A stretch of DNA of 58,282 bases from Chloroflexota bacterium (GTDB lineage: Bacteria; Chloroflexota; Anaerolineae; UBA2200): the NCBI GenBank assembly GCA_014360905.1, contig JACIWW010000019.1, forward strand, positions 1 through 58,282. Reading direction: 5' to 3'. Made by a program: the position numbers and the translations under genes. A model generated the notes under the pieces. The model had not been told where the DNA came from and did not search any database. It saw only the letters and a program-made list of their open reading frames with translations. How positions within the stretch are numbered: the stretch's first letter is position 1; every line of letters starts with the position of its first letter. Below are positions 9,635-27,370 of this stretch, one piece after another.

Positions 9635-9682
9635 TGTGCCTGGTCTTATCACACTCACATTGCAGGAACCAAGAGGGTAAGG

Positions 9683-10666
9683 ATGAGCAGGAATTGGATG
9701 CCGTTGAGATTGTTTCTGGCTTTGCTGCCAGTAGCAATAGCCTTGCTCGTGAGTACATGTAGTGCACCGACGCCCACTCCCACACCACAACCAACTGCTA
9801 CACCCAGGCCAACACCAACTCCTACGCCACGACCGCTTGACCTGGTGGTCCTGCATACGAACGATGTGCTGGGTTATACTGAACCTTGTGGCTGAAGGCC
9901 ACCGAAAGGAGGACTGGCTCGGCGAGCCAGTGTGATCAAAGCGACGCGCCAGCAATCAGCAAACACGCTGCTGCTGGATGCAGGCAACTCGATTTGGGGT
10001 GTGCAGCCTTTAACAGCGCAAAGCCAAGGCAAGGTGATCATTGATGGCATGAACCTGATGGGGTACAATGCCATGGCCATTGGCGATTTAGATTTGCAAC
10101 TGGGACCCGATGTCCTACGCCAACGCATAGCCGAGGCAAAATTTCCCATCCTTTCGGCCAATGTACTGCTTGCCAGCGAGAACAAACTGCTGGCCCAGCC
10201 CTATGTCTTGCTGCAAATGGGAGGCCATCAGGTGGGCATCATCGGATTGACCTGGGATGCTGCGGACTTGTCGTTGCCCCAAATCCAAGGGAAATTCATT
10301 CTACTGAAAGCAGAGGACGTGCTGGCTCGGTATGTGGCTGAGTTGGCGAAACAGGCTGATATCATCATTGTGCTATCCAACATGGGCTACGACGAAGATG
10401 TGCAACTTTCCTCATTAGTGCCGGGCATTGACCTCATCGTGGGTGGGCGCTCACGCATCCCCATGCCCCAGAGCTGGCGCAATAACCAGACGGGTACCCT
10501 AGTTGTTCAAGCAGGCTCGCAGGGAGAGTGGATTGGTCGCCGCACGCTGCATTTGGATAGCAAAGGTGTAGTCACCAACTATGCTGATGAATTAATCTAC
10601 CTGACAGATGACTTTGCCGATGACCCAGAGATGCGTGCATTTCTAGACAATTATCAAGCGCAGTAA
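9683..10666 (+). CDS. Metallophosphatase/5'-nucleotidase-like lipoprotein with in-frame TGA (candidate selenocysteine)
   Basis: Reading through one TGA (9893-9895) gives a 327-residue protein. The start has GAGGG at 9673-9677. Residues 7-25 form a signal sequence ending in VSTC, a weak lipobox with Cys26, followed by a Pro-Thr linker to about residue 52. Then comes LDLVVLHTNDVLGY, the start of a calcineurin-like/5'-nucleotidase fold, and EPCG followed by the TGA as residue 71. The frame continues with GGLARRAS and MGYNAMAIGDLDL, both family-like. As recalled, relatives read EPCGC here, so the TGA replaces a cysteine and would make a CGU redox motif. A hairpin fitting the bacterial SECIS model lies 17 bases after the TGA. 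A nonsense-mutated pseudogene is the alternative. Confidence 0.72.
9913..9931 (+). promoter_or_regulatory. SECIS-like hairpin after the in-frame TGA
   Basis: ACTGGCTC (9913-9920) pairs perfectly with GAGCCAGT (9924-9931), leaving the loop GGC. The loop begins 26 bases downstream of the TGA and its first two bases are G, which matches the published bacterial SECIS consensus as I recall it (small apical loop with G early in it, about 16-37 bases from UGA). The hairpin also encodes the conserved LARRAS segment, so part of the symmetry could be coincidental. Confidence 0.6.
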
Positions 10667-11724: not shown

Positions 11725-11797
11725 GCCCCTGTAGCTCAGTGGACAGAGCAGCTGCCTTCTAAGCAGTCGGTCGGGCGTTCGAATCGCCCCAGGGGTG
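11725..11797 (+). tRNA. tRNA-Arg (TCT), left copy
   Basis: A 73-base cloverleaf: acceptor GCCCCTG pairing with CAGGGGT (one G-U), D-arm GCTC/GAGC, anticodon stem GCTGC/GCAGT with loop CTTCTAA (anticodon TCT at 11758-11760), and T-arm GGGCG-TTCGAAT-CGCCC. CCA is not encoded. A TATAAT at 11711-11716 lies eight bases upstream, so this copy has a recognisable -10 box. It is the left boundary of the integrated element. Confidence 0.93.
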
Positions 11798-11804
11798 CTA
11801 GATA
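11725..11804 (+). repeat. 80-bp direct repeat, left attachment site
   Basis: The sequence from the first base of tRNA-Arg through GCTAGATA is repeated without visible change at 17054-17133. It covers the whole tRNA plus seven downstream bases. With an integrase gene starting 62 bases inside it, this is the left att site of a tRNA-targeted element. Flanking bases differ outside the repeat, which fixes its limits. Confidence 0.9.
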
Positions 11805-11866
11805 GCAGATGTAGTAGTCTGCTGACAAGCCCCTACTACCTATTGTGGTGGTGGGGGTTTTGTCTT

Positions 11867-12793
11867 ATGGCAGAGTTGAAAAGAGACCAACTGCTTTCTG
11901 TTCTGCGCCAAACTGAACTAGCCCAGGACATCACCGCTTTTGTCGTGGACAGGCAGGCACGTGGACTAAGCCCCAGGACGTGTGAGTACTACAGCAAAGA
12001 GCTACGCCATTTACAAGCCTACCTCGAAGGGCGGGGGGTGCGGCGGGTACGGGACGTCACGGCTGACCACATCCGCCAATATCTGCTGCACCTGTCCCAG
12101 AGGGGACGCAATGCCGGCGGTTGCCATTGTGCCTATCGGGTAGCCAAGACTTTCCTGCGTTGGGCCTGGGCTGAGTACGGGCTTGCCCCGCCTTGCCCAA
12201 TTGCCAAAGTCACTGCCCCACGAGTGCCTCAGCAGCAATTAGACCCTGTGCCTTTGTCCAACCTCAAAGCGATGCTGGCAACCTGCGAACGGCACACGTT
12301 CCACGGCGACCGTGACCGAGCCATTTTGCTTTGCCTGCTGGACACGGGTGCGAGGGCATCCGAGTTTCTAGCCCTCGATGTGCGTGATGTCAACCTGAGC
12401 ACGGGAGCAGTCATCATCCGTCATGGCAAGGGCGGCAAGTTCAGGACCGCCTTCGTGGGGGCAAAGGCCAGGCGTGAACTGGTGCGCTATCTCAGGCATA
12501 GGAGCGATAGCGGCGCATTGTGGGTGACAATCGAGGGCAAGCGCCTTACGTATGCTGGCCTGCGCCAGGTTGTGCGGCGTCGGGCATTGGCAGCGGGCGT
12601 GCCTGTGCCTTCGCTGCATTCATTCAGGCGGGCCTTTGCGCTGGCCTGCCTGCGTGGTGGCATGGACGTTTACAGCCTGCAAAAGCTGATGGGCCACGCC
12701 GATTTGACAGTATTGAGGCGCTACCTGCAACAGAGCGAGGCCGATTTGCAGGCGGCACACGCCAAGAGCGGGCCAGTGGACAATCTGTTATAG
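11867..12793 (+). CDS. Tyrosine recombinase/integrase
   Basis: A 308-residue site-specific recombinase. An N-terminal SAM-like core-binding domain covers about residues 15-105 (LSPRTCEYYSKELRHLQAYL), and the catalytic domain about 125-295. The residues needed for strand cleavage are present: Arg163 in DTGARASEF, Lys in HGKGGKFR, His251 and Arg254 in HSFRR, His277 in LMGHADL and the nucleophile Tyr286 in RRYLQQ. ATG 11867 is preferred; the frame is open back to 11795 but that would overlap the tRNA. Its place just inside the left repeat identifies it as the integrase for tRNA-Arg. It resembles XerC/D-type elements' recombinases more than lambda integrase. Confidence 0.93.
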   Translation: MAELKRDQLLSVLRQTELAQDITAFVVDRQARGLSPRTCEYYSKELRHLQAYLEGRGVRRVRDVTADHIRQYLLHLSQRGRNAGGCHCAYRVAKTFLRWAWAEYGLAPPCPIAKVTAPRVPQQQLDPVPLSNLKAMLATCERHTFHGDRDRAILLCLLDTGARASEFLALDVRDVNLSTGAVIIRHGKGGKFRTAFVGAKARRELVRYLRHRSDSGALWVTIEGKRLTYAGLRQVVRRRALAAGVPVPSLHSFRRAFALACLRGGMDVYSLQKLMGHADLTVLRRYLQQSEADLQAAHAKSGPVDNLL

Positions 12794-12809
12794 AAAGGAG
12801 GTGAGAAAG

Positions 12810-13115
12810 GTGAACGCTGAGGCATTACTGGAACGCTACGGGGGCAAGGCACGACAGGTGCTAGAGAACGTCCGACCCATTGCCGAGAGCTACATTGACG
12901 CTTGTCTAGTTCTGGACTTGGACGCTGAGGATGCCGAAGATGCCATTCTAGCCCTGGCCGAGATGGAAGGCTGTCTATCCTGCCAGCACAGCCGAGCGCC
13001 CAGGAACGCCGAGGAAGCAGCACGCCAAAAAGGCTATTTGCCCGTGCAGATACGTAGCTGCGCCCTCGGCCTGTCGCAGGATGGATGCACAGCCCGCAAG
13101 CCGATAATCCCGTAG
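12810..13115 (+). CDS. Small Cys-containing protein of the element, unknown
   Basis: A 101-residue acidic protein. GTG 12810 is chosen because AAAGGAGGT (12795-12802) is properly spaced from it, whereas GTG 12801 touches the ribosome site. An alpha-helical N-terminal half (LLERYGGKARQVLENV, then DLDAEDAEDAILALAEME) is followed by CLSC and two further cysteines, which could bind a metal. It begins 16 bases after the integrase stop, so the two are probably co-transcribed. No family is recognised; a directionality or regulatory factor is possible. Confidence 0.65.
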   Translation: MNAEALLERYGGKARQVLENVRPIAESYIDACLVLDLDAEDAEDAILALAEMEGCLSCQHSRAPRNAEEAARQKGYLPVQIRSCALGLSQDGCTARKPIIP

Positions 13116-13283
13116 CAATTCGACCCGCTGCCCTGGCCTATCGCTGCCAGGGCACTAGGGTGCTTTGACGATTTTTGTGCTAAAATGATGATTGAGCGGG
13201 CAGCGTCCGACGGGACGCTTTGGGGCCAGTCTGCCCATACCAGGCTGGCCCACCGCTATCACAGTATGGGGGTGAAGCGGAAG

Positions 13284-13922
13284 ATGGAAAACGACATTCG
13301 AATTCCCGACTGGGCAGAAATCAAACGTATCCTTAAAAACCCGCAGGAGCGGTTTGTATGCATCGAACAAGACCTGGAGACTCCTGAAGGCACAAAACGA
13401 CATCAGGCTTCCTTTCGGGCCCAAGAGGAAGTGTATAAGGTTTTGAAGTCAGAGATAGCCGGCGAGGTCTATATCCGAGTATGCAGGGCAGGCGTACCTA
13501 AGAAAGCAATCGAGCTGATACTGGAGCGGCCTTCCGGGGTGATTCCCGGACATTTAGCAGACTTCCTATTTGACCTGATGCGGCGGGTATCCTACCTCAT
13601 TCTCCTAGAGGCGGTCAGGGCATATGGCGCAGAGCGGCGGCAACTGCGGCGAGATGCGGCAAGGCAAATTCCCCTAGATGCTACAACTGGTGAGGGTGAA
13701 GTGCCGCTGCACGAGGTCATAGCCGACCAAAGGGCTTGGACTAAACCTACCACCGACCTAGAGAGCCTCTTCGATGTCCTCACCGAACGGGAAGGCCAAG
13801 TGATAGTACTGCTAGCCCAGGGGTATGCGCAAGGAGAAATTGCTGACATCCTGGAAATATCCCCAGGGCGGGTCAGTCAAATAATGCGCCAGGTGCAGAT
13901 TAAATGTAAAATTGAGCCTTGA
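13284..13922 (+). CDS. Sigma-factor-like DNA-binding protein
   Basis: A 212-residue protein whose C-terminal 50 residues form a sigma-70 region-4/LuxR-type HTH (LTEREGQVIVLLAQGYAQGE, then IADILEISPGRVSQIMRQV). The middle has the helical, basic character of small phage sigma-like activators, but no clear region 2 (core-binding/-10) is seen. The start is uncertain: ATG 13284 or ATG 13266. A terminator follows at 13952-13991. By position it may activate the downstream ATPase operon of the element. ArpU-like late regulators are a comparable class. Confidence 0.68.
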   Translation: MENDIRIPDWAEIKRILKNPQERFVCIEQDLETPEGTKRHQASFRAQEEVYKVLKSEIAGEVYIRVCRAGVPKKAIELILERPSGVIPGHLADFLFDLMRRVSYLILLEAVRAYGAERRQLRRDAARQIPLDATTGEGEVPLHEVIADQRAWTKPTTDLESLFDVLTEREGQVIVLLAQGYAQGEIADILEISPGRVSQIMRQVQIKCKIEP

Positions 13923-13951
13923 ATTCACAAAATGCCCTAAACTTTCTGCCC

Positions 13952-13991
13952 TCCTCGTGTCCTTATAAGTAGAGGCACGAGGATTTTTTTT
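13952..13991 (+). terminator. Rho-independent terminator after the sigma-like gene
   Basis: TCCTCGTG (13952-13959) pairs with CACGAGGA (13976-13983) around a 16-base loop and is followed by eight T. The loop contains TTATAAG. It separates the integrase/sigma-like group from the ATPase group of the element. Confidence 0.8.
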
Positions 13992-14012
13992 AAAAAAGAG
14001 GAGGAGGGAGAA

Positions 14013-14273
14013 ATGGATTTTGAAACAGTCGTCACTTACGTCTCAGCAAGCGGGCGTCGCCTGCCTCTGATTGCCGCTCGGGGACTGCAGGCAGCATTGC
14101 CCGTCGTGCGAGAGGCATTGAATCAGCACTTGAGGCTGGCGCTCAGTTGCGAGGACCCCCTCGAATCTGAGTATATCGTTGGCGTGATGGAGCGAGCTCA
14201 GCGAATCACCGAGGAGGCGGCGGAACTGGCCAAAAAACAAGATACAACAAGATTGTCAGGAGGTGCGATATGA
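14013..14273 (+). CDS. Small helical protein of the element, unknown
   Basis: An 86-residue protein with a good ribosome site (GAGGAGGGAG ahead of ATG 14013). It is almost wholly helical: residues about 15-45 (RLPLIAARGLQAALPVVREA) and 50-75 (EYIVGVMERAQRITEEAAEL). No family is recognised. Its stop overlaps the next ATG (ATGA at 14270), and it leads the group ending in the replication-type ATPase, so it may be a replication accessory or dimerising regulator. Confidence 0.6.
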   Translation: MDFETVVTYVSASGRRLPLIAARGLQAALPVVREALNQHLRLALSCEDPLESEYIVGVMERAQRITEEAAELAKKQDTTRLSGGAI

Positions 14274-14467
14274 CTAAGACAATGCCCGCCGGCGGGCACG
14301 GCGGGCAAGGTGCAGGAGGCAGCCCTCATCCGACGGGCGGCCTGTACCCTGGCGCCAGTGGGTGTATGCCGAGCAGGTCATACAACTCGACACAGCAAGC
14401 GGCCAGCAGCTTCCGCTTTTCGGGGGTGCCCTATGACCAACTTACCTTTTACAATTTACACATCTGA
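14270..14467 (+). CDS. Short Gly-rich ORF overlapping the ATPase start (doubtful)
   Basis: A 65-codon frame begins at ATG 14270 inside the stop of the preceding gene, behind a strong AGGAGGTGCG site. It has low-complexity Gly/Ser content (PAGGHGGQGAGGSPH). It runs in a different frame from the ATPase and overlaps its first 35 bases. It may be a real small protein or simply a translated leader that carries ribosomes to ATG 14433. The composition argues against a folded product. Confidence 0.3.
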   Translation: MTKTMPAGGHGGQGAGGSPHPTGGLYPGASGCMPSRSYNSTQQAASSFRFSGVPYDQLTFYNLHI

Positions 14468-15416
14468 TACAATTTTAAATTCACAATGGTCAGAGCCAAC
14501 CTGGATTGTGCCACAGCTGATTCCGACAGGCTTGACCCTTTTGGCTGGTAGGCCCAAGAGCGGCAAATCTTGGTTGGGATTGCAAATCGCTCGGGCAGTC
14601 GGCGCAGGGGAGGAAATCTTGGGGCAGCCGGTCGAGAGGCGGCGGGTCCTGTACCTGGCGCTGGAAGACAACGCCCGGCGGCTGAAGGAGCGTATGGAGC
14701 GGCAGGGCTGGCCTGCCGGCCTAGATGTGGACTTTTTGCTTGCCAGCGATTTCCGCAAGCAGGTGGGAAGCCTTGCCCTCAAGGGCAAGTACGCCACAGC
14801 CGGCGCACAGCGATTGGCCAAATATATTGAGGCAATGGCGTACAGACTTATTGTAACGGACACGTTGAGCCGGGCAGGCCTGGGCGACCAATTGGCGCAC
14901 GATGAAATGGTCACCGCCTTGGAGCCCTTACAGGAATTAGCGCTCTCACTTGACTGCGCCTTTATTTTTCTAGACCACCACCACAAGGCCGTTGGCGACA
15001 CGCCTGATGCGGTATCACACGTCTTGGGCTCCACAGCCAAGGGCGCACTTGCCGATACCTTGCTTGCCCTCTACCGCAAACCAGGGGAGGTAGAGGCAAA
15101 ACTATGTGCCACAGGCCGAGACATTCGAGATATTGCTTTGCAGTTATGCTTTGATGACATGACTGGTTGCTGGCGTTTACTGGGCAAAGCGACGACTATC
15201 GAGCTTACGGAACGGCGGCAAGAAATCCTGGATGTCCTGGCAACTTTAGGCACCGCTACACTGAGCGACATCGCCAAATCCATCGGCCAGGATAAGAGCA
15301 ATACCAGCAAACGGTTGGCTGACTTGGTTGCTGCCGGCCTGGTGCGGCGAACCAGTCATCTTGGCATTGTGGCTTACGAGCTAGGGGACGCATTTGACGA
15401 AGCTATGGCAAGTTGA
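14433..15416 (+). CDS. RecA-fold AAA ATPase (AAA_25/RepA-like) with C-terminal winged helix
   Basis: A 327-residue protein. The Walker A motif GRPKSGKS is at residues 39-46, VLYLALEDNARRLKERM follows, and a Walker-B-type strand ends LIVTDTLSRA. Then come FIFLDHHHKA and a helix-turn-helix at the C-terminus (ATLSDIAKSIGQDKSNTSKR, about 275-300). This arrangement belongs to plasmid and phage replication ATPases related to hexameric RepA helicase. The start is uncertain: ATG 14433 is taken, though the frame is open to GTG 14310 and 41 more residues. The twin repeat arrays begin 21 bases after its stop, as expected for an origin beside its initiator or helicase gene. Confidence 0.8.
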   Translation: MTNLPFTIYTSDTILNSQWSEPTWIVPQLIPTGLTLLAGRPKSGKSWLGLQIARAVGAGEEILGQPVERRRVLYLALEDNARRLKERMERQGWPAGLDVDFLLASDFRKQVGSLALKGKYATAGAQRLAKYIEAMAYRLIVTDTLSRAGLGDQLAHDEMVTALEPLQELALSLDCAFIFLDHHHKAVGDTPDAVSHVLGSTAKGALADTLLALYRKPGEVEAKLCATGRDIRDIALQLCFDDMTGCWRLLGKATTIELTERRQEILDVLATLGTATLSDIAKSIGQDKSNTSKRLADLVAAGLVRRTSHLGIVAYELGDAFDEAMAS

Positions 15417-15428
15417 CAATTTATATAT

Positions 15429-15518
15429 GCTTATATAGTTACCATACTTACCATAGCTACCACGGCTACCATAGTTACCATAGCTACCACAGCGTGGTAG
15501 CTGTGGTAGGTGTGGTAG
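15429..15518. repeat. Array A: nine 9-bp units, six forward and three inverted, with AT-rich flank
   Basis: After the flank GCTTATATA (15429-15437) come six units GTTACCATA, CTTACCATA, GCTACCACG, GCTACCATA, GTTACCATA, GCTACCACA (15438-15491). Three reverse-oriented units GCGTGGTAG, CTGTGGTAG, GTGTGGTAG follow (15492-15518). The last three forward units can fold on the inverted three: GCTACCAC-AGC-GTGGTAGC is perfect, and outer units pair with occasional wobble. This suits an iteron origin, an operator cluster or a structured RNA. It is not a CRISPR, because no spacers exist. Confidence 0.85.
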
Positions 15519-15584
15519 GCACTTATGTAGGGAACCGAGATGAGCCACTATCTAGGTAGGTTGCCTAGTAGACATTTTATACAG

Positions 15585-15674
15585 GCTTATATAGCTACAA
15601 TACCTACAACACCTACAATGGCTACAACAGCTACAACAGCTACAACGGCGTTGTAGGTGTTGTAAGCGTTGTAG
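15585..15674. repeat. Array B: sister array of nine 9-bp units
   Basis: The same GCTTATATA flank (15585-15593) precedes six forward units GCTACAATA, CCTACAACA, CCTACAATG, GCTACAACA, GCTACAACA, GCTACAACG (15594-15647). Three inverted units GCGTTGTAG, GTGTTGTAA, GCGTTGTAG follow (15648-15674). The start is exactly 156 bases after the start of array A. Every unit has ACAA where array A has ACCA, and the inverted units change to match, so pairing is kept. The centre folds as CTACAAC-GGC-GTTGTAG. Confidence 0.85.
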
Positions 15675-15688
15675 GTCATTCTGAAGCC

Positions 15689-15952
15689 ATGATTAATCGA
15701 GGTATAAAGGCTAAAATGCATAATCATATAAAAAAGCTGGTATGGATGGTTGAAACTGGGCAATTGCCCATGATGGTAGGGGTGCACGATGTGGACGTTT
15801 ACCACGATGACTGGTGTGCTATCTTTCGTGGGGGATGGTGTAACTGCGACCCGTGGATACGAGTACATGAGGGAACTGAAGCGGAGGCAGGTTGCTTAGA
15901 TGGGTACAGGCACATCGAGAGCAAGTTGCCAAAAGTGGAAAAAACCGAGTGA
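15689..15952 (+). CDS. Small Cys/His-rich protein of the element
   Basis: An 87-residue protein beginning 15 bases after array B. The core HDVDVYHDDWCAIFRGGWC followed by NCDP recalls the D-x-C...GG-x-C-x-C-D-P motif of short phage-borne proteins, and the three cysteines plus histidines could hold a metal ion. No strong ribosome site is seen at ATG 15689, and ATG 15716 is also possible. Function unknown. Placement next to the arrays allows a role in replication or regulation, but nothing proves it. Confidence 0.55.
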   Translation: MINRGIKAKMHNHIKKLVWMVETGQLPMMVGVHDVDVYHDDWCAIFRGGWCNCDPWIRVHEGTEAEAGCLDGYRHIESKLPKVEKTE

Positions 15953-15997
15953 GGTTTTAGGCGGTATAAGTTACTGAGACGGTGAACAAATGTTCTA

Positions 15998-16019
15998 GGC
16001 AAAATTACGGCAAAATTAC
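15998..16019. repeat. 11-bp exact tandem duplication
   Basis: GGCAAAATTAC occurs twice back to back (15998-16008 and 16009-16019), just ahead of the small gene at 16053. It could be a slippage product or a binding site. No other copies were noticed. Confidence 0.6.
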
Positions 16020-16052
16020 GGGTTTTAACGAATGGGTAGACGGAGGGCGGAA

Positions 16053-16226
16053 ATGAGCCAATCAGTGGCGGACTTTAGCATTGATTGGGATAAGTGGCTT
16101 GAGGACTTTGAGCATTTGGCCAAAGAAATGGAGGACTACTGGAGCTATGTGGCCACCCACGGGATTATAACGTGGGAGGACTTTGCACAAATTGACGAGT
16201 GGCTAGCACGGGATTTGACATTTTGA
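16053..16226 (+). CDS. Small acidic protein of the element, unknown
   Basis: A 57-residue protein, Trp- and Asp/Glu-rich (IDWDKWLEDFEHLAKEMEDY, then ITWEDFAQIDEWLARDL). ATG 16053 is favoured because GGAGGGCGG (16041-16049) sits just upstream; the frame also has ATG 16032. Small acidic proteins of this kind in mobile elements include anti-repressors and DNA mimics, but that is speculation. The promoter at 16215-16243 overlaps its last codons. Confidence 0.5.
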   Translation: MSQSVADFSIDWDKWLEDFEHLAKEMEDYWSYVATHGIITWEDFAQIDEWLARDLTF

Positions 16227-16243
16227 ACCTTTTGTGCTATAGT
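16215..16243 (+). promoter_or_regulatory. Consensus promoter upstream of the excisionase-like gene
   Basis: TTGACA (16215-16220) and TATAGT (16238-16243) are 17 bases apart, with TGTGC before the -10. Downstream, CATAGTG occurs at 16258-16264 and 16291-16297 and, inverted, CACTATA at 16272-16278. GCACTAT/ATAGTGC can form a 7-bp stem. These look like operator sites in a roughly 180-base untranslated region before the start at 16420. The rest of 16244-16419 also holds two TTTACG repeats but no gene. Confidence 0.6.
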
Positions 16244-16419
16244 TTGCGTAGCAGAACATAGTGGGAAAGGGCACTATATAACATAATGTCCATAGTGCGA
16301 AGTTTGAAAACAAAATTCAAAAAAACCGCTACCGATTCGTTGATTTACGCAGTTTACGAATTTATAGCGAGGTGCAAACCGAAAACGAAACTGCTGCGCA
16401 AATTTTTGTGAGGTGAAAG

Positions 16420-16608
16420 TTGACAATAGAGCCTGACAAAGTCTATCGCTTGCCTGAACTAGCAGAAATACTAGGCCTGCACGTGATTACCTTGCGCCGT
16501 TTGGCGCAGCAGAGGAAGCTGCCTGTCTTCAGGGTAGGCCGGCAATACTTCGTGCGTGGCATTGACCTTTTAGAATCCAAACGTGATGATAAAAGCCCTG
16601 CGATGTAG
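16420..16608 (+). CDS. Excisionase-like helix-turn-helix protein
   Basis: A 62-residue DNA-binding protein of the excisionase/MerR-like HTH type. YRLPELAEILGLHVITLRRL forms the HTH, QQRKLPVFRVGRQYFVRG is the wing, and a short charged tail follows. The start is TTG 16420 with AGGTG four bases upstream. Such proteins act as recombination directionality factors, so with the integrase at the other end of the element it probably promotes excision. The dedicated promoter and the repeat motifs ahead of it suggest tight control. Confidence 0.78.
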   Translation: MTIEPDKVYRLPELAEILGLHVITLRRLAQQRKLPVFRVGRQYFVRGIDLLESKRDDKSPAM

Positions 16609-16669
16609 GCACATCCAGGGCACGGCGTCGGTGGTATCGGCACCGAGCGCAGGGAAATTATAACACAAG

Positions 16670-16701
16670 GCCCTGTCGGTGCAAATACCGGCGGGGCTTT
16701 T
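16670..16701 (+). terminator. Terminator after the excisionase-like gene
   Basis: GCCCTGTCGGT (16670-16680) pairs with ACCGGCGGGGC (16687-16697) with two G-U pairs and a six-base loop, followed by TTTTCATTT. A second small hairpin, CGGTG/CACCG, lies at about 16629-16645. Confidence 0.7.
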
Positions 16702-16728
16702 CATTTGACAGGAAAAGAGGTGAACGGG

Positions 16729-16938
16729 ATGGACTCAGAATCGAAATCGCTTGAGAACTGGTTGCGGCGTCGTGCAAAGCGATTAGGACTCGCATTGCAC
16801 AAATCACGTCGTTCACTCAGCATAGACAATCTGGGGGGCTACCAAATCATTGACTCACACAACCGGATTGTAGCAGGCGAAAAGTTTAACCTCGAACTGA
16901 ATGATGTGGCTGCCTTCCTGGATGACTACGAAGCATAG
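16729..16938 (+). CDS. Small basic conserved-type protein of the element
   Basis: A 69-residue protein with ATG 16729 behind GAGGTGAAC. The pattern LRRRAKRLGLALHKSRRS, then GGYQIIDSHNRIVAG and a final acidic helix (LNDVAAFLDDYEA), is familiar from short uncharacterised proteins in actinobacterial and other mobile elements. No enzymatic motif is seen. It is the last gene before the right att copy. About 115 bases of non-coding sequence separate it from the tRNA. Confidence 0.62.
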   Translation: MDSESKSLENWLRRRAKRLGLALHKSRRSLSIDNLGGYQIIDSHNRIVAGEKFNLELNDVAAFLDDYEA

Positions 16939-17053
16939 TAGTTCGCTTTTTGATTGCCGAAATAGAGCAACTGCTTTGGCATAAACGATTGGTCAACTTA
17001 ACAACACAAACCACAAAAGGTAGTAGTTACCGACTGCGACAGCACTACAGGTA

Positions 17054-17126
17054 GCCCCTGTAGCTCAGTGGACAGAGCAGCTGCCTTCTAAGCAGTCGGT
17101 CGGGCGTTCGAATCGCCCCAGGGGTG
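17054..17126 (+). tRNA. tRNA-Arg (TCT), right copy
   Basis: Identical over all 73 bases to the copy at 11725-11797, including the anticodon loop CTTCTAA. No convincing -10 element is seen in the 40 bases upstream, unlike the left copy, so this one may be silent unless read from the element. Because the tRNA is intact on both sides, integration does not destroy the host gene. Confidence 0.9.
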
Positions 17127-17133
17127 CTAGATA
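17054..17133 (+). repeat. 80-bp direct repeat, right attachment site
   Basis: Second copy of the tRNA-Arg-containing repeat. The match ends at GATA (17133), after which the valS promoter begins. The repeat-to-repeat distance is 5329 bp. Confidence 0.9.
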
Positions 17134-25953: not shown

Positions 25954-26985
25954 TTACGCAAACTGCTGCAAGAAGCGCAAGTCGTTGGCAAAGAAGTAAC
26001 GGATATCATCAATGCCATATTTCAGCATGGCAATGCGCTCTGGCCCCATGCCAAAGGCAAAGCCAGTGTAGATAGCAGGGTCGTAGCCTCCGTTGCATAG
26101 CACCTGTGGATGCACCATGCCCGAGCCCAAGATCTCTAGCCAGCCTGTGTACTTACAAACACGGCATCCCTTGCCCTTGCAAAGGATACAATCAATGTCC
26201 ATCTCTGCGCTGGGCTCTGTGAACGGGAAGTAACTGGCGCGGAAGCGCACTTTGCGTTCTGCACCAAACATCTGTCGGGCAAAGTGGGTCAGCACACCTT
26301 TCAGGTCGCCCATCGTTACATGATAGCCGATGGCCAGCCCCTCAACCTGGTAGAACATGGATTCATGTCGAGCCGTGACCTGCTCATAGCGATAGCATTT
26401 TCCGGGCAAGATGACCCGAATCGGTTCGGGACAATACATGCGCATGACCCGTATCTGCCCTGGGGAGGTATGCGTGCGCAACAACACCCCTTCGCGCGTG
26501 GTGTGTAACGTGCTCCACATGTCGCGCGCGGGATGGTAGGGAGGGATGTTGAGCAATTGGAAATTATTGAGATCTGTTTCCACCTCCGGAGTTTCCACCA
26601 CCTGGAAGCCCATTTGTGCGAAGATGGCGTAAATCTCGCGCAATGTGCGTGTGCTGATATGCAGGCAGCCAGGGCCAACCGGACGTCCTGGCAAAGTCAC
26701 GTCAATCCGTTCCTCTGCTAGCCGGCGCTGGATTTCCTCCCGTTTGAGTGCTTCTGCCTTCTCTGCGTAAGCCCGCTCCAAGGTCAGCCTGAGTTGGTTG
26801 GCAGCTTGGCCGATGGCAGGCCGCTCCTCAGGTGGCAACTGCCCCATGCCGCGCAGGATAGCAGTGAGTGACCCCTTCCGCCCCAGGTAGGCGACACGCC
26901 ATTTGTCCAAGGCTTCCGTCGAACTCACATCTTTCAGTTCGTCCAGAGCTTTCTTCTCCAGCGCGCGCAATTGATCTGAGACCAT
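25954..26985 (-). CDS. pheS: Phenylalanyl-tRNA synthetase alpha subunit
   Basis: Catalytic class II subunit, 343 residues with ATG 26985 (GGGAGG upstream); the frame is open to 27024. It has an N-terminal coiled coil (about 1-85), then motif 2 (MYCPEPIRVILPGKCYRYE) and motif 3 (YTGFAFGMGPERIAMLKYGI) near the C-terminus. A CxxC-x4-CxxC segment (CILCKGKGCRVC) is typical of many bacterial PheS proteins. It pairs with PheT as an alpha2-beta2 enzyme. Confidence 0.96.
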   Translation of the reverse strand: MVSDQLRALEKKALDELKDVSSTEALDKWRVAYLGRKGSLTAILRGMGQLPPEERPAIGQAANQLRLTLERAYAEKAEALKREEIQRRLAEERIDVTLPGRPVGPGCLHISTRTLREIYAIFAQMGFQVVETPEVETDLNNFQLLNIPPYHPARDMWSTLHTTREGVLLRTHTSPGQIRVMRMYCPEPIRVILPGKCYRYEQVTARHESMFYQVEGLAIGYHVTMGDLKGVLTHFARQMFGAERKVRFRASYFPFTEPSAEMDIDCILCKGKGCRVCKYTGWLEILGSGMVHPQVLCNGGYDPAIYTGFAFGMGPERIAMLKYGIDDIRYFFANDLRFLQQFA

Positions 26986-27065
26986 GTCTTGCCTCCCTTT
27001 GATTGCTTCAAATCCCCAAAGCATGCCCTCTCGCCAACATCCGATGGACTATTCTGCAGTTAGTA

Positions 27066-27370
27066 AAACAAAACGGTTGTGACTTCAGGGACGAAGTCGC
27101 AACCGTTACGTCTCCGCGGTACCACCCTGTTTGGCCAAGTGTATCTTGACCCTCTCTATGCTGGCGGCCAACGCTTAAACATGGCTTACCAGCCGCCCGG
27201 CTAACGGCGGGCTGCCGGAGCGACCTACTTACAAACGCGGCAGGCGTTTGGTTCAGTCGTCGGCTCAGGAGTGAACTTCAGCGAGGTACTTCCCAAGGAG
27301 GCTTCCAGTCCAGGACCTCCTCTCCCTGTTGGCCCTCACTCGCTTACTCTCTCCGTCGCAGCCTTTCGCT
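27066..27370 (-). promoter_or_regulatory. T-box riboswitch leader of pheS-pheT
   Basis: On the minus strand the T-box AGGGTGGTACCGCGG corresponds to 27114-27128, with TGGT matching the ACCA end of tRNA-Phe. The terminator is GAAGTCGCAACCGTT/AACGGTTGTGACTTC (27093-27107 and 27072-27086 in plus coordinates), followed on the transcript by TTGTTTT. The intervening 27130-27370 holds the stem I region. The specifier codon was not assigned. The rest of the roughly 570-base gap to the next gene (27403-27559) shows no gene. Confidence 0.85.

Follow-up and report, generated by a model that had tools for sequence, protein, structure and literature searches.

An exported selenoprotein candidate of Chloroflexota with a 5'-nucleotidase fold and few of its dimetal ligands

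UshA-like selenoproteins and the gene in the window

UshA-like selenoproteins carrying a CxU motif were reported within COG0737 by the Global Ocean Sampling study (PMC2398784), and the same kind appears in later reviews (PMC9312934, PMC13188914). Two curated models describe proteins close to the one encoded here. NF041198 (UshA-like (seleno)protein) has, like it, an UshA-like domain with PCGU at the corresponding position. NF049981 (UshA-like (seleno)protein family 2) shares with it a single UshA-like, Sec-containing domain of about 262 positions, although its motif is listed as CxxU rather than CxU (PMC13188914). The fold is common to the N-terminal domain of the 5'-nucleotidases UshA and CD73 (rmsd 2.2 over 270 residues) and to the thiosulfohydrolase SoxB (TIGR04486).

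The gene that we analyzed occupies positions 9683–10666 of the plus strand of the window, by which we mean the whole stretch of 58,282 nucleotides examined from the genome of a Chloroflexota bacterium. NF041198 is the best-scoring curated model for its product, with 184.5 of the 275 bits that its cut-off demands; the match covers only profile positions 20–271 of 519, the C-terminal half being absent, so that the protein has the PCGU motif of this equivalog but neither its score nor its length. None of 400 genomes of the phylum reached the NF041198 cut-off. The score against NF049981 was 45.9 bits (cut-off 140), and that against SoxB, the second-best NCBIfam profile, was 118.7 bits, far under the cut-off of 550. 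Pfam gave no match to the protein, even at an E value of 1. Unlike UshA and CD73, the protein lacks the DxH, GNH, and GHxH dimetal ligands as well as the C-terminal domain; the metal ligands of SoxB are likewise missing. The gene thus belongs to an unannotated branch of the known UshA-like selenoproteins, short, single-domain, and without the metal site. We found no description of metal-site loss in this branch in the limited literature searched. The whole branch, which in our sample comprises about 75 genes from more than 50 genomes, scores below the curated models, and automatic annotation can be expected to truncate such genes at the UGA.

An earlier note on this DNA had proposed that two open frames are joined through a single TGA at 9893–9895, and translation of 9683–10666 agrees with this proposal. 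The frame starts at ATG 9683 with MSRNWMPLRL, continues through VSTCSAPTPTPTP to LDLVVLHTNDVLGYTEPCG, meets the TGA as its only internal stop, resumes with RPPKGGLARRAS, and ends with NYQAQ; LVVLHTNDVLGYTEPCG precedes the TGA, and beyond it the frame stays open to a TAA ending at 10666. Read through, the product has 327 residues, with Sec as residue 71. The upstream elements described in that note are all present on the plus strand: a ribosome-binding site read from the sequence (AGAGGG, 9672–9677), a signal sequence (9683–9760) with a lipobox-like VSTC at its end, and a Pro-Thr-rich linker (9767–9835). These are followed by the single domain (9836–10663), which includes the Cys-Gly-Sec codons TGT GGC TGA (9887–9895). 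In the closest orthologue the sequence ending in this lipobox-like Cys is LNAC. Of the 25 members examined, 19 have a simple lipobox pattern. Since most of the relatives examined have a lipoprotein-like signal at the N-terminus and many have a Pro/Thr linker, the domain probably faces outward. The protein would be exported and is probably membrane-anchored.

Selenocysteine at the in-frame TGA

TGA is an ordinary stop codon in the window, where it closes 12 of 26 long open reading frames, so that no general change of code is involved. The host genome, an assembly of 2.83 Mb in 49 contigs with 96% completeness, contains every component of the selenocysteine machinery for which the earlier note had suggested a search: tRNA-Sec with a UCA anticodon (70 bits), SelA (474 bits), SelB (348 bits, above cut-off), and SelD (377 bits, G000:C38:244-1179). 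The selD gene carries a single in-frame TGA of its own; SelD proteins form an established family of selenoproteins, and the host gene serves as an internal positive control. Within the class, SelA was found in all 27 high-quality genomes with a match of this selenoprotein kind and in 51 of all 54 such genomes, the three without it being 73–81% complete. Since SelA is common in the phylum (327 of 400 genomes), its presence has limited power as evidence. Separately, in three genomes of one genus (G403:C4, G458:C120, and G431:C12) selA adjoins the selenoprotein gene in convergent orientation.

The TGA is conserved among relatives. A paralogue on another contig of the host genome (C1:87033-87971) also has one TGA, as does each of the seven best matches, from six genomes, in a search of 400 genomes of the phylum; the weaker matches listed all lack it. 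In separate assemblies, the same TGA is present in an orthologue from the same genus (L047, 84% identity) and in L048 and L049. A class-wide search queried with the paralogue yielded dozens more TGA-containing members, from which 80 stretches were taken for comparison. Searches of the phylum and of the class together brought the number of relatives with a TGA to about 75, nearly all of which have the codon at the same position. In the set compared below (n = 76; class-search stretches plus the earlier loci), the only Cys form is L181, which reads EPCAC; the other 75 have TGA. The statement in the earlier note that related proteins read EPCGC at this site was borne out by L051 and by the set L052–L073, the latter partly fetched with a pattern containing PCGC; L181 was found without that pattern. 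Sec or Cys is thus kept at the EPCG site of homologues, with Sec almost exclusive in the branch and a single Cys form seen.

The motif itself varies in a few members. CNTU, CSTU, and CGVU, all with CxxU spacing, occur among L020, L218, and L220, and CGGU and a Cys-less PATU occur among L209 and L208. In L217 (G489:C41), two adjacent in-frame TGA codons just ahead of PIAKGGLARRAS replace Gly-Sec and the motif Cys is lost; the hairpin sequence and the downstream frame are intact, and the pair could possibly be read as Sec-Sec. L219 (G617:C380) is a TGA member with neither the motif Cys nor the hairpin pairs, from a genome that is 81% complete and in which SelA was not found; in this member the codon may act as a genuine stop, or the gene may be in decay.

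The earlier note had named decay as the competing view. In the form weighed here, a Cys codon recently mutated to TGA, or was misread as TGA, leaving the downstream part as a relic. A single substitution would suffice for this, and metagenome assemblies can hold errors. Yet the TGA is conserved over many families of the phylum in separate assemblies, a recurrence that here takes the place of read depth as a check of the base, and the part downstream is uniform in length, at 249–292 residues across members (L220 is cut short). Comparison with L047 over the 256 codons after the TGA gave dN 0.10, dS 1.38, and dN/dS 0.073, with 117 of the 172 differences at third positions. This ratio indicates a functioning coding sequence rather than a relic. 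Given this purifying selection and the covarying SECIS hairpin described below, we reject decay or error, whose probability we regard as negligible.

Nor is it credible that the upstream frame ends at the TGA and that the downstream domain is a second protein with an internal start, for example at GTG 9932. A GTG-started open reading frame of 244 residues does exist. The start codon, however, is not conserved (L048 has ACA AAA ATC there), protein-level conservation extends over both sides of the TGA, and the first β-strand of the modelled fold is predicted to lie upstream of it. Covariation of the hairpin likewise speaks against two separate proteins.

Covariation of the SECIS hairpin

The published model of bacterial SECIS elements has a loop of 3–9 nt, a stem of 4–16 bp, a G in the first two loop bases, a spacing of 16–37 nt, and an MFE of at most −7.5 kcal/mol (PMC13188914). 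The hairpin in the window, ACTGGCTC-GGC-GAGCCAGT (9913–9931, plus strand; loop 9921–9923), falls within all of these limits, with a 3-nt loop (GGC) that begins with G, a stem of 8, a distance of 25 nt from the TGA, and an MFE of −23.2 (59-nt segment; z −2.9). It overlaps the LARRAS codons. Rfam yielded no SECIS match at the hairpin locus; the only weak Rfam match, to CRISPR-DR20 on the other strand and below the gathering score, was taken as chance.

Four of the six core stem pairs are largely dictated by the protein, since the stem shares nucleotides with the codons for the conserved LARRA; the covariation test was therefore limited to the two pairs that link synonymous third positions. These pairs are kept in 75 and 74 of the 76 sequences, respectively, with compensating changes present. 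With shuffled partners, 61.4 and 63.6 would be expected, and none of 20,000 shuffles reached values as high; control pairings showed no excess. The first pair occurs as C-G, T-A, G-C, and T-G, with about 8 joint-state changes on a tree, and the second as G-C, A-T, T-A, C-G, and G-T, with about 13. In register, 438 of 444 cells are paired, against at most 217 of 444 when one side is slid. As shuffling ignores relatedness, we rely chiefly on the number of changes on the tree and on the out-of-register controls. At the second loop base, 74 of 74 sequences have G or T, even though elsewhere these genes use CGC for 55% of their CGN codons. Two members depart from the pairing: the Cys form L181 breaks one pair and L219 breaks both.

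Synonymous recoding of single sequences gave modest P values (0.01–0.13) because the LARRA codons are partly self-complementary, and we take the comparison of pairing between sequences as the decisive test of the hairpin. A few homologues without Sec also have a GGxxRR-like stretch, but with Lys for the second Ala they are too different to serve as a strict hairpin control. In its pairing changes at synonymous sites, the branch offers an unusually clean natural experiment on the SECIS of bacteria.

Machinery, conservation of the TGA, Sec or Cys in homologues, purifying selection, and the covarying hairpin all favor the proposal in the earlier note that the TGA specifies selenocysteine on a cysteine position. 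Judged from these sequence comparisons, the TGA at 9893–9895 almost certainly encodes selenocysteine. In the mechanism that we propose, the ribosome would meet the UGA while the hairpin 25 nt downstream, through its apical GGC loop, recruits SelB and Sec-tRNA(UCA). Sec would be inserted to give EPCGU, and translation would go on through the single domain with the UshA/CD73 N-terminal fold. Insertion at this UGA is strongly supported by the sequence data.

The vacated metal site and the role of Cys-Gly-Sec

An AlphaFold2 model built from the window protein and its relatives reached a pLDDT of 88.8; the Cys-Gly-Sec loop is its least confident part, with pLDDT below 50 at residues 18–25. In fold comparison the model gave a VIA Z of 34 to both CD73 and UshA and 32 to SoxB. 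The description of the protein as metallophosphatase-like in the earlier note thus holds for the fold, that of the UshA/CD73/SoxB N-terminal domain and of UshA-type members of COG0737, but not for the dimetal ligands. Among the COG0737 ligands D41, H43, D84, N116, H217, H252, and H254 (UshA numbering), the window protein keeps only D41 and D84. Alignment to a Thermus 5'-nucleotidase shows the two Asp residues kept and the other ligands replaced: His by Leu, Asn by Asp, His by Leu, His by Asn, and the pair His, His by Arg, Arg.

This pattern extends over the branch. Across the 76 members, D84 is invariant, D41 is present in 75, and H217 persists in 44. Of the remaining ligands, H252 survives in three members, H43 in two, and H254 in one, and no member has N116 or H117. 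Taking H43, N116, H117, H252, and H254 together, 70 of the 76 members keep none of the five and 6 keep one, whereas all nine metal-type homologues in the same alignment have the full ligand set. In a first comparison, members with CGC or CGU were without the metal set and members with the metal set were without CGC or CGU; the CGC set in that comparison had been partly fetched by motif, not by absence of ligands. In a quick tree the metal-binding members form one clade.

Most of the ligands have been lost, and we think it likely that phosphatase chemistry has gone with them from the window domain. A protein that kept nucleotidase or phosphodiesterase activity, with Sec only tuning it, would fit the clear similarity in fold and sequence to UshA, CD73, and SoxB. 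We consider this very unlikely, given that no member retains more than one of the five dimetal ligands and that the C-terminal, substrate-binding half is absent.

Taken as a whole, we regard it as very likely that the gene encodes an exported Sec protein that combines the UshA/CD73 fold, without its metal site, with a putative redox Cys-Gly-Sec motif. Having lost most of its dimetal ligands, the domain is very probably no longer a nucleotidase, and in the model Cys-Gly-Sec would follow strand 1, beside the vacated site. There the motif would most likely form a selenenylsulfide, or selenol-thiol pair, that performs redox chemistry on the outer side of the cytoplasmic membrane. We lean toward such a redox role for Cys-Gly-Sec, and a selenol/thiol redox protein is our best guess from the anatomy.

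The main rival to this guess is a metal site: a single metal in the former dimetal cleft, with Cys, Sec, and the kept D41 and D84 as its ligands. Sec is a metal ligand in formate dehydrogenase and NiFeSe hydrogenase, which provides a precedent, and the near-invariance of the two Asp residues, with H217 in more than half of the members, is in keeping with it. Against it stand the loss of the other five ligands across the branch (at most one is left), the usual nature of CxU as a redox motif, and the CxxU spacing in L020, L218, and L220, which suits a redox pair at least equally well. We consider a metal site unlikely, though a serious contender.

A redox role for Cys-Gly-Sec is thus the reading that we prefer. 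The broader generalization, that a widespread class of Chloroflexota selenoenzymes has a metallophosphatase fold with its dimetal center exchanged for a surface Cys-Gly-Sec redox center, we would give an even chance. If true, this would be a selenol oxidoreductase that acts outside the cytoplasm and is not built on a thioredoxin fold. The branch pairs a hydrolase fold that is without its metal site with an adjacent Cys-Gly-Sec. It also makes the role of UshA-like selenoproteins testable with a small single-domain protein.

Neither a conserved neighbor nor a reductase partner was found in 24 stretches around these genes; some genes recur loosely, one example being an aspartate kinase-like gene present in four of the 24. 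Elsewhere in the window, an 80-bp sequence comprising tRNA-Arg(TCT) and some flank occurs in two identical copies 5,329 bp apart (11725–17133), with a tyrosine integrase (11795–12793) directly after the first copy, and the segment looks like a small element integrated in a tRNA gene. A T-box leader is located at 27084–27368 on the minus strand, just upstream of a minus-strand open reading frame at 25954–27024.
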